A stretch of 64,000 bases of DNA from Colwellia ponticola (GTDB taxonomy: Bacteria; Pseudomonadota; Gammaproteobacteria; Enterobacterales; Alteromonadaceae), in NCBI RefSeq assembly GCF_005885605.1, contig NZ_SZVP01000003.1:124001-188000 (forward strand), in the 5' to 3' direction. Both the position numbers and the translations under genes were made by a program. The notes beneath the pieces are model-generated. The model searched no databases. It was not told where the DNA came from and worked only from the letters and a program-made list of their open reading frames with translations. Below, one piece after another: positions 24,052-43,062 of the stretch; within the stretch, counting starts at the first letter, position 1; each line of letters begins with the position of its first letter.

Positions 24052-24408
24052 TTGACGGCCTAAAGGCCGACCTACAAAAGAGCGTAGGTAATGGTTGTTG
24101 GCGTGTAGGTCGGGGTTTACCCCGTCAAAAATATCAGCAATAGGGTTAGCTTGACGGCCTAAAGGCCGACCTACACAAGAAGGTTCACGCAATCTTCAGT
24201 GATAATGGCACTTTGTAGGTCGGGATTTATCCCGTCAAAAACATCAGCAACCTGATTAGCTTGACGGCCTAAAGGCCGACCTACAAAAGAGCCTAGGTTG
24301 TTGGCGTGTAGGTCGGGGTTTACCCCGTCAGAAATTGTAGGTCGGGATTTATCCCCGTCAAAAACATCAGCAATATGATTAGCTTGACGGCCTAAAGGCC
24401 GACCTACA
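24052..24408. repeat. REP-like array B, eight palindromes
   Basis: Eight 25-bp palindromes start at about 24052(-), 24104(+), 24151(-), 24214(+), 24261(-), 24307(+), 24336(+) and 24384(-). Every minus-orientation copy has the GGCCTAAAGGCC core. Every plus copy has GGGGTTTACCCC or GGGATTTATCCC (one copy has an extra C). Successive copies are held by two spacer types, one containing ATCAGCAA and TTAGC between tails. The array occupies the gap between wzz and the beta-CASP nuclease gene. Confidence 0.93.
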
Positions 24409-25639: not shown

Positions 25640-26124
25640 TTGTCGCGTAGGTCTGGGTTTAGCTACAATAGGACTGCTTTCTGTAGGTCGGGGTTTAGAT
25701 ACGATAGGACTGGTTTCTGTAGGTCGGGGTTTACCCCGTCAAAAAAATCAACAATATGATTAGCTTGACGGCCTAAAGGCCGACCTACAAAAGCTGCTTA
25801 GCTGGTAGTTTTGCTGTAAATGTAGCTCGGGGTTTAGCTGCAATAGGACTACTTTCTGTAGGTCGGGGTTTAGGTACGATAGGACTGGTTTCTGTAGGTC
25901 GGGGTTTACCCCGTCAAAAAAACATCAGCAATATAATTACCGTGACGGCCTAAAGGCCGACCTACAAAAGAGCGTAGCTGGTAGTTTTGCTGTCAATGTA
26001 GGTCGGGGTTTACCCCGTCAAAAAAATCAACAATATAATTAGCTTGACGGCCTAAAGGCCGACCTACAAAAGCTGCTTAGCTGGTAGTTTTGCTGTAAAT
26101 GTAGGTCGGGGTTTACCCCGTCAA
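25640..26124. repeat. REP-like array C-left, upstream of the RAYT gene
   Basis: Full palindromes lie at about 25719(+), 25765(-), 25893(+), 25942(-), 25997(+), 26044(-) and 26100(+), each 25 bp. Plus copies carry GGGGTTTACCCC and minus copies GGCCTAAAGGCC. Between them are half-copies that keep the GTAG foot and left arm but end in a different 3' sequence containing ATAGGACT (from about 25651, 25682, 25821 and 25858). The last full copy ends 80 nt before the transposase start. Confidence 0.93.
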
Positions 26125-26204
26125 ATAGCTTTATTGGTAATAATAGCTATATTAAACTTAGGTAGTGAGCAAACGGCAGAACTTACAATTTAAAGGATCT
26201 AGTT

Positions 26205-26657
26205 ATGTCATGGAGCGAGTTAAGAAAAGGTCGAATTTCACAAGCACAAGGTGAGTACTTCATTACTTTTAATAGTTATAATAAGCGGCCATACTTTAAT
26301 AATTTCGATTTGGCCTGTTTGTTTTGTCAATATATATCGGTGCATGAAACTAAATATCAGTGTACTTGGCTCACCTGGGTTTTAATGCCCGATCATTTTC
26401 ATGGTTTATTGCGTTTAAATGTTAACGATCCCGGATTATCTCAAGTTGTTGGTGCATTAAGAGGCGCAAGTAGTTTTATTATTACTAAAAAGTTAAATGG
26501 GGATAATAAACTATGGCAACCTTCATTTTATGATCGTGCTTTGCGCATTGAAGATGATAGAAAAAATATAGCGAGATATATTATTGCCAATCCTTTGAGA
26601 AAAAAATTGGTTAACCATATTGGAGATTATCCTTTTTGGAATTCAATATATTTATAA
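26205..26657 (+). CDS. REP-associated tyrosine transposase (RAYT)
   Basis: A 150-aa single-domain Y1/HUH transposase relative. The metal-binding HUH motif is H64-F65-H66 in MPDHFHGLL. The FYDRALR motif holds candidate catalytic Tyr Y109, and ARYIIANP (Y125) is conserved in the family. RAYTs nick single-stranded REP hairpins at a GTAG foot, and the palindromes flanking this gene on both sides have that foot. All motifs are intact, so the protein may be active. It is not bounded by classic IS ends, which fits the domesticated character known for RAYTs. Confidence 0.92.
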   Translation: MSWSELRKGRISQAQGEYFITFNSYNKRPYFNNFDLACLFCQYISVHETKYQCTWLTWVLMPDHFHGLLRLNVNDPGLSQVVGALRGASSFIITKKLNGDNKLWQPSFYDRALRIEDDRKNIARYIIANPLRKKLVNHIGDYPFWNSIYL

Positions 26658-26696
26658 TTAATAAACTTCAAGTTTAGCTGCATAAGAGATATTACC

Positions 26697-27080
26697 GTGA
26701 CGGCCTAAAGGCCGACCTACAAAAGCTGCTTAGCTGATGGTTTCGGTGTCAATGTAGGTCGGGATTTAGCTACGATAGGACTGCTTTCTGTAGGTCGGGG
26801 TTTACCCCGTCAAAAAAATCAACAATATGATTAGCTTGACGGCCTAAAGGCCGACCGACAAAAGCTGCTTAGCTGGTAGTTTTGCTGTAAATGTAGCTCG
26901 GGGTTTACCCCGTCAAAAAACATCAACAATATGATTAGCTTGACGGCCTAAAGGCCGACCTACAAAAGCTGCTTAGCTGGTAGTTTTGCTGTCAATGTAG
27001 GTCGGGATTTACCCCGTCAAATAGCTATCAACAATCATTAAAAAAACGTATTACCGTGACGGCCTAAAGGCCGACCTACA
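26697..27080. repeat. REP-like array C-right, downstream of the RAYT gene
   Basis: Palindromes start at about 26697(-), 26789(+), 26836(-), 26892(+), 26940(-), 26996(+) and 27056(-), plus a half-copy at about 26754. The orientation and stem-type rule is the same as on the other side of the transposase gene. One plus copy has a GGGATTTACCCC core, where the inner pair is mismatched. Spacers containing GCTTAGCTGGTAGTTTTGCT recur between feet. Confidence 0.93.
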
Positions 27081-30589: not shown

Positions 30590-30621
30590 TGTCGGGCCTC
30601 ACTGCGCTCGTGCCGACCTAC
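30590..30621 (-). repeat. Solitary REP-like palindrome of another type
   Basis: Read on the minus strand it begins GTAGGTCGGCACGAGC and ends AGGCCCGACA. It has the same GTAG foot and outer stem as the main family but a different, larger interior. It lies 17 nt after the stop of the decarboxylase-family gene. Confidence 0.55.
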
Positions 30622-34100: not shown

Positions 34101-34380
34101 ATTACCGTGATGGCCTAAAGACCAACCTACACAAACAGTGTAGGCGGTTTTGGTATTTGTAGGTCGGGCTTTAGCCCGTCAAAAAATATTGAAAATCATT
34201 CGAGAATGATTAAAAAATTAATATTACCGTGATGGCCTAAAGACCAACCTACACAAACAGTGTAGGCGGTTTTGGTATTTGTAGGTCGGGCTTTAGCCCG
34301 TCAAAAAATATTGAAAATCATTCGGGAATGATTAAAAAATTAATATTACCGTGATGGCCTGAAGGCCAACCTACAAAAAA
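34101..34380. repeat. REP-like array D, 122-bp tandem unit
   Basis: Between the convergent sbcB and dctD genes a 122-bp unit starts at 34101, repeats at 34223 and begins a third time at 34345. Each unit has a minus-orientation palindrome (GGCC type with outer T-A pair, partly decayed to AGACC in the first two copies), a head spacer, and a plus-orientation GGGC/GCCC palindrome. The first two units are almost identical, so the duplication is recent. Confidence 0.92.
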
Positions 34381-42912: not shown

Positions 42913-43062
42913 TGTAGGTCGGCCTTTAGGCCGTCAAGCTAATCAGATGGCTGATATTTTTTGACGGGGTAAACCCCGACCTACTCAAACCCGAGCTAAC
43001 AAACCCGGCTTAGCCAAAGCAGTTAGCATACCTTTTGTGTAGGTCGCACCTTTAGGCCGTCA
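42913..43062. repeat. REP-like array E
   Basis: Three palindromes lie at about 42913-42937(+), 42961-42985(-) and 43037-43062(+, decayed). Here the plus copies are of the GGCC type and the minus copy of the GGGG/CCCC type, the mirror image of array C. The tail-to-tail spacer (GCTAATCAGATGGCTGATAT) is the reverse complement of the spacer in arrays B and C. The array separates convergent glutathione peroxidase and lysC genes. Confidence 0.88.

Follow-up and report, generated by a model that had tools for sequence, protein, structure and literature searches.

The best explanation of the repeats described here, and in our judgement a very probable one, is that the analysed window (a 64,000-nucleotide stretch of the Colwellia ponticola genome, G000) encodes a RAYT of group 3, that is, a Marinomonas-Mb-like TnpA-REP, together with the REP family on which this enzyme would work. 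The RAYT (TnpA-REP) gene occupies positions 26205-26657 on the plus strand. As the preliminary description had stated, its ORF is intact and encodes a Y1/HUH protein of 150 aa; it matches the Pfam profile Y1_Tnp and is endowed with the HUH motif (H64-F-H66) and the one catalytic tyrosine (Y125) by which RAYTs are recognised. In profile searches the protein scores 128.1 bits against the NCBIfam family REP_Tyr_transpos (NF047646, cut-off 80) and only 20.4 bits against the IS200/IS605 transposase family NF033573 (cut-off 55), so that by this score it is not an autonomous IS200/IS605 insertion sequence. Its top sequence match in the PDB is 4er8, the E. coli TnpA-REP bound to REP (E = 6 × 10−8), and the same entry ranks first in a Foldseek search with the AlphaFold2 model of the protein (pLDDT 89; E = 3.8 × 10−10, TM 0.73). 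Furthermore, H64, H66, W104, Q105 and Y125 are invariant in an alignment of 16 RAYTs, and D110 and R111, assigned by counting positions from W104-Q105, stand for E100 and H101 of the E. coli numbering, as in group 3 (subclass 2.5). The C-terminal tail of group 2 is absent, as the protein stops at residue 150, shortly past W145. With its score in the curated family, the 14 inverted GTAG palindromes beside the gene and the 131 in the genome, the product is, by its sequence, classed as a true RAYT of the Mb-like type (group 3, subclass 2.5); that it is a live enzyme is what we infer. Its nearest relative among the RAYTs compared belongs to another genus (G208) and is 66% identical (tree support 100/95).

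A second match over the NF047646 cut-off occurs in G000 at positions 101645-102175 of contig C207. This diverged RAYT-like protein of 176 aa (99.8 bits, no Pfam match) is placed far off in the tree, and no GTAG palindrome was detected close to its gene; polysaccharide-modification genes (MBOAT and the C-terminal part of ManC) lie at a distance of about 5 kb and REP arrays at 9 kb.

REPs were searched for by allowing at most one mismatch to GTAGGTYGGNNTTNANNCCRTCA, the core being 23 bp long, or 25 bp with the outer bases. Fourteen of them flank the RAYT between 25719 and 27079, seven per side, in agreement with the roughly fourteen 25-bp palindromes noticed earlier. The upstream array (25719-26123) comprises REPs at 25719+, 25766-, 25894+, 25943-, 25998+, 26045- and 26101+, alternating in orientation and of two stem types; the downstream array (26698-27079) comprises those at 26698-, 26790+, 26837-, 26893+, 26941-, 26997+ and 27057-. 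The initial claim that every palindrome begins with GTAG holds for 13 of the 14, the exception being 26837, which reads GTCG. Half-REP units, each about 36 bp long and absent from the earlier list, are found on the plus strand at four positions, 25647, 25683, 25822 and 25858 (25647-25886), and a fifth unit is at 26754. In such a unit the REP is represented by its 5' half, to which a 3' part that contains ATAGGACT and is not palindromic has been fused; among the fetched G000 stretches, these units are confined to the RAYT site.

Elsewhere the window holds ten REPs (at most one mismatch) in arrays at 44-1730, on the galU side of a surface-polysaccharide locus, seven at 24053-24407, at the wzz end of the same locus, in the gap that separates wzz from its neighbour, five at 34108-34374, and one pair at 42914-42984. 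These are four of the five further places that had been listed; the fifth, at 30591-30621 on the minus strand, is by eye a single GTAG hairpin that is longer and divergent, and it falls outside the family at the thresholds used. None of the 38 REPs of the window lies inside an ORF of at least 100 aa, though such ORFs, as called by the ORF picker of this analysis, cover about 85% of it. The repeats are what is meant by REPs and BIMEs, namely short, intergenic, high-copy palindromes in inverted pairs. With up to 7 mismatches allowed, the real window gave 42 rows, a few of them spurious, against 0-1 matches in three Markov-shuffled windows; these, and a reversed control pattern run on the whole genome, reject chance repeats or shared simple sequence. 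The gap between pgi and galU, where the first arrays stand, measures about 2.6 kb in G000 versus 0.16-0.26 kb in the relatives G011, G014 and G019 (alignment coordinates). Between its arrays, at 224-1019, lie genes for a HepT-like RNase and a nucleotidyltransferase, which resemble a HEPN/MNT toxin-antitoxin pair.

The REP has the form GTAG-GT, 5-bp stem, TTNA loop, stem and TC[A/T] tail. The fetched stretches contain 115 REPs with a perfect stem; in these, the loop reads TTTA in 104, TTCA in 6, TTGA in 4 and TTTC in 1 (TTNA in 114/115), and the tail reads TCA in 112 and TCT in 3 (TC[A/T] in 115/115). A short REP with 1-2 nt between GTAG and stem, a TTNA loop and CA or CT beside the hairpin is that of group 3/subclass 2.5 (Mb-like) systems, while the long REP with a mid-stem bulge of the E. 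coli-type group 2 REPtron is not what is found, the stem being a perfect 5 bp. The first stem pair, scored in 129 REPs, is C-G in 84, T-A in 38 and another in 7; thus, the hairpin is kept through paired (compensatory) changes. Neighbouring REPs within 80 bp of each other are arranged tail-to-tail in 54 cases, head-to-head in 39 and in the same orientation in 1. No tail-to-tail pair (0/54) consists of identical copies, which is weak evidence for the avoidance of identical REPs within a pair, the 54 pairs coming from only 18 sites. One pair of unlike REPs forms a long hairpin on folding (z about -6), and the arrays are tandem, with a unit of about 100 to 210 bp that varies by site. The REP copies share descent, so the motif counts are not independent. 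TnpA-Mb of Marinomonas acts on a REP whose wild-type loop reads TTTA; positions 1, 2 and 4 of the loop are needed and position 3 is free, and the GTAG guide selects the cleavage site, which is CA or CT (Corneloup 2021, PMC8266576). Shared descent notwithstanding, the natural variation of the REPs agrees closely with these measured rules.

The whole G000 genome (3.72 Mb, 238 contigs) contains 131 REPs at one mismatch or fewer, versus 1 match for the reversed control pattern; at the same threshold, 45 of 60 relatives lack any copy, and the maximum is 22. The proposal that the RAYT is accompanied by cognate REPs is thus upheld by the family score, the catalytic residues, the fold, the REP architecture, the co-variation of 22 RAYT-REP pairs described below, and these 131 copies versus at most 22. 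All but two of the REPs (129/131) were located, at 18 sites on contigs C166, C109, C207 and C1, and 45 of the 131 lie on C109, C207 and C1, away from the canonical RAYT. Orthologues of the genes beside the C166, C109 and C207 clusters are found at 3.60, 4.28 and 4.43 Mb in the complete genome G011; because these positions are far apart, the clusters are probably separate places, and a single large REP region split over the G000 contigs is rejected. On C1, at 293709-302853 (L044 709-9853), an ORF translation repeats HCRTGSLEKA and adjoins large genes, in what resembles a type I-F CRISPR-Cas locus. A variant REP array with a spacing of 33 bp (GTAGGTCGTGCTTTAGCGCGTCA) is located at C1:301684-301838.

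REPs and RAYTs change together. GTAG palindromes stand beside 15 of 15 full-length canonical RAYTs of the genus, that of G000 counted, and other RAYTs have other palindromes; at G010, G013 and G020-C21 the detector found no GTAG hairpins, and the GTAG palindromes, with imperfect stems, were read by eye. RAYT and REP distances are correlated (Mantel r 0.68, n = 22; 0.63 after thinning to 17; p = 1 × 10−4), the REP strings having been hand-picked from the detections and 22 of 34 tree rows used. Rows were dropped where no clear REP was available at selection (G010, G013, G020-C21, G000-C207 and Xanthomonas L034), where none was detected (G058), or where the region was not scanned (G088, G279, G383, G400-C11, G222 and G066). 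G208, with the closest RAYT among those compared, also has the REP that differs least. Across 37 genomes of the genus, the presence of a RAYT clade goes with more REPs of that clade (clade I, p = 2 × 10−6; clade II, p = 7 × 10−5). Clade-I REPs number 60, 10, 7, 9 and 2 in genomes with a clade-I RAYT, and 87 (G014), 2, 1 or 0 in those without. Clade-II REPs number 52, 75 (G019, 66 of them listed), 43, 49 and 91 with a clade-II RAYT, and 32 (G010) or at most 13 without. The RAYT of G020 C21 (L108 376-1975) lies within long tandem repeats of about 138 bp that contain GTAG palindromes of a different stem, and adjoins genes that by eye resemble wza, wzb and wzc.

The case of G014 bears on whether the enzyme is still at work. 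This genome and the complete genome G011 form a close pair, with about 80-92% DNA identity over the RAYT region. Where G011 has REP-RAYT-REP, G014 has one REP joined directly to downstream sequence, and what comes after this single REP is what follows a same-orientation downstream REP in G011. The two sites differ by 716, 856 or 996 bp, three sizes being possible because the downstream array repeats and any of its copies can be matched; each reading spans one direct REP copy to another. The G014 assembly has no RAYT match over the cut-off, yet it holds 87 clade-I REPs. An assembly gap is rejected for this site, which falls inside contig C22, though other G014 contig ends do fall in REP arrays. 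The preliminary description had taken palindromes at similar density in a genome lacking any RAYT as evidence against the pairing, and this is literally the situation in G014, once; the comparison, however, reads as recent loss, because a close relative has the RAYT where G014 has one REP, and it is loss rather than gain that we infer. Either RAYT action or recombination may have removed the gene. Around the G011 RAYT, seven of eight REP sites have a G014 counterpart with a different copy number; unalignable DNA surrounds the eighth (3613 kb) and also one site of G014 (C9:97911). The shared sites are old ones of changing copy number, not new insertions; thus, most sites are old, the arrays are elastic, and REPs outlast the RAYT. 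The survival of REPs after RAYT loss has been found and modelled in pseudomonads and stenotrophomonads (Nunvar 2013, PMC3686654), so that this finding was already known in kind in 2013, and G014 adds a clean example.

These old sites, the arrays that are still large in G014 without a RAYT, and an in-frame stop in the RAYT of G002 would all suit a RAYT that is now domesticated or inactive, with the REPs as relics and with array length changing by replication slippage and homologous recombination only. We regard this as possible but unlikely, since the G000 ORF is intact with all catalytic residues present, almost every copy obeys the rules for stem, loop and tail, and the palindromes beside each RAYT co-vary with it.

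The very high local density noted at the outset was confirmed for the REP family of G000, and the preferred reading, a RAYT with the REPs on which it works, is supported by a similar crowding in several relatives. REPs lie within 50 kb of the RAYT in 84/131 cases in G000, 46/60 in G011, 49/91 in G023, 24/52 in G002, 16/43 in G020 and 5/49 in G022. When separate sites are counted with the RAYT site excluded, those within 50 kb are 9/18 in G000 (p = 3 × 10−10), 7/10 in G011 (3 × 10−10), 14/36 in G023 (1 × 10−15), 8/23 in G002 (3 × 10−8), 2/19 in G020 (0.08) and 3/39 in G022 (0.07), p values being relative to uniform placement and all genomes but G011 being drafts; the 18 sites of G000 are 17 of the REP family plus the variant array at C1:301684. 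Crowding is thus weak in G022 and G020. G019 has 75 clade-II REPs, of which 66 were listed; 19 of these 66 are within 24 kb of the clade-II RAYT. In G032, G029, G019-C13 and G036 all 28 clade-I REPs are within about 0.6 kb of the RAYT. The phenomenon is not new in kind, as REPs were reported in 2010 to crowd around the rayt gene in three marine gammaproteobacteria (Nunvar 2010, PMC2817692), and their concentration near the tnpA-REP gene was repeated for Marinomonas (Corneloup 2021, PMC8266576). The genus, however, offers a natural series, from genomes in which the clade-I REPs number 2 to 10 and are all found at the RAYT, to genomes with 52 to 131 REPs, about half or more of them within 50 kb. 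The manner in which REPs spread is still unproven, and this series bears on it, as does the G011/G014 pair, with its loss of a RAYT between REP copies.

In the window, REP arrays stand at both ends of the surface-polysaccharide (O-antigen-like) locus (1800-25485, minus strand), which is context outside the RAYT system and contains genes for an NTP transferase/galU-like protein, Polysacc_synt_2, a sugar transferase, a glycosyltransferase, a flippase and Wzz. Crowding might reflect such a locus, with its long or often-exchanged intergenic DNA, instead of proximity to the RAYT. It is strong where the RAYT lies at a polysaccharide locus (G000, G011, G002 and G023) and weak elsewhere (G022 and G020 C20), and the polysaccharide contig of G020, C21, has 7 clade-II REPs, though their RAYT is that of C20. 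This explanation is doubtful nonetheless, as the RAYTs of G032, G029, G019-C13 and G036, with all 28 clade-I REPs close by, lie away from polysaccharide genes, and several G000 arrays lie among genes that by eye resemble housekeeping genes. As for ordinary transcription terminators or regulatory hairpins with a transposase neighbour by chance, the intergenic position of the REPs (38/38 in the window) would suit them, whereas the fixed GTAG foot and TC[A/T] tail, the paired inverted arrays, the co-variation with the RAYT and a distribution largely confined to G000 among 61 genomes strongly disfavour this reading, which we consider highly improbable.

The association of RAYTs with polysaccharide loci was examined in its own right, under a hypothesis formed after looking at the data. 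Twenty query proteins from the window locus, labelled by the analyst, were matched within 10 kb of each RAYT in the 16 regions of the genus, reduced to 15 by excluding the locus itself and keeping G000-C207; three further RAYT matches over the cut-off (the second in G010, that on G013 C59 and G023 C2:539601) did not enter as separate cases. A match was found in 7/15 regions versus 1/40 controls (Fisher p = 2 × 10−4; 0/20 regions around other Y1 genes and 1/20 evenly spaced positions in complete genomes), some test and control regions being shorter than 20 kb because of contig ends; with related RAYTs counted once, the figures are 4/8 versus 1/40 (p = 0.002). G016 gave no match, yet the neighbours of its RAYT are two glycosyltransferases, an acyltransferase and an asparagine synthase, so that the neighbourhood looks like an EPS locus. 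At the level of the order, a polysaccharide marker occurs in only 4 of 42 RAYT regions chosen by the analyst (versus 7/15 in the genus, p = 0.004), and a general rule is not supported there. The other sites, named by eye, are flagellin genes (G032, with G029 and G019-C13 syntenic), cytochrome bc1/rplM (G022 and G020-C20) and a ribosomal operon (G036). The RAYTs of G002, G019-C8 and G023 have one flank in common and are probably one inherited site, whereas relocation is suggested for the RAYT of G011 because it is nested among flagellin-site RAYTs in the tree. Tentatively, RAYT/REP systems of this genus may be carried preferentially at surface-polysaccharide loci (O-antigen, capsule, EPS), where several RAYT lineages would have arrived separately, perhaps riding on horizontal exchange; both flanks would subsequently be seeded with arrays, and these could offer homology for later exchanges. 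If it holds, the link suggests how a transposase that is not obviously self-mobile passes between species. Among the literature matches listed, and as judged from that listing, none reports the recurrence of RAYTs of this genus at such loci, and this recurrent setting is the part worth following.

The mechanism that we propose starts from DNA made single-stranded by replication or transcription, in which the REP would fold as GTAG-GT followed by the 5-bp hairpin with its TTNA loop. The RAYT would bind this hairpin, with GTAG as the guide, cut by means of Y125 at the CA (or CT) of the TC[A/T] tail, and rejoin the ends, so that REP pairs are copied or rearranged. It probably acts mostly near its own gene, via coupled transcription and translation, as has been proposed (Nunvar 2013, PMC3686654), and this preference would be why arrays accumulate near the RAYT: the site of the RAYT itself would be the earliest to gain them, the surrounding 50 kb or so would follow, and distant places would receive them more rarely. 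The number of copies in an array would afterwards shift by slippage, recombination or RAYT action. Against this explanation we count the weak crowding in G022 and G020, the 87 REPs of the RAYT-less G014, the 45/131 REPs on distant contigs, the shared descent behind the motif counts, and the array sites common to G011 and G014, which are old and not new insertions.

Among known systems, the GTAG-1 and GTAG-2 REP families (Di Nocera 2013, PMC3733652) are alike in the two bases after GTAG, the 3-nt tail, the dimers, the clusters and the association with a RAYT; the name Colwellia is absent from the main text of that report. In three marine gammaproteobacteria and in Thauera, REP regions span up to about 200 kb around rayt and are not spread genome-wide (Nunvar 2010, PMC2817692); these are the precedent for crowding. 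To it the present analysis adds counts for six genomes of a single genus (crowding is weak in two), an instance of natural RAYT loss and the setting at polysaccharide loci. The E. coli TnpA-REP (PDB 4er8) and its BIMEs have in common with the G000 system the Y1/HUH fold, the GTAG foot and unlike REPs placed as inverted pairs on either side of the gene (PMC2817692), but the E. coli enzyme belongs to group 2, in which the REPs are longer and bulged and the protein carries a C-terminal tail (PMC8266576), both absent in G000. The REPtron Mb of Marinomonas sp. MWYL1 (Corneloup 2021, PMC8266576) has the same 5-bp perfect stem and 4-nt loop TTTA, two bases from GTAG to the stem, CA/CT beside the hairpin and REPs near the tnpA-REP gene, a likeness in architecture; the arrays described here differ in being large and tandem, with unlike REPs in alternating orientation. 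Changes in GTAG are also better tolerated by the Marinomonas/group 3 enzyme than by that of E. coli (PMC8266576), and the former is the closer experimental model for the system in G000.
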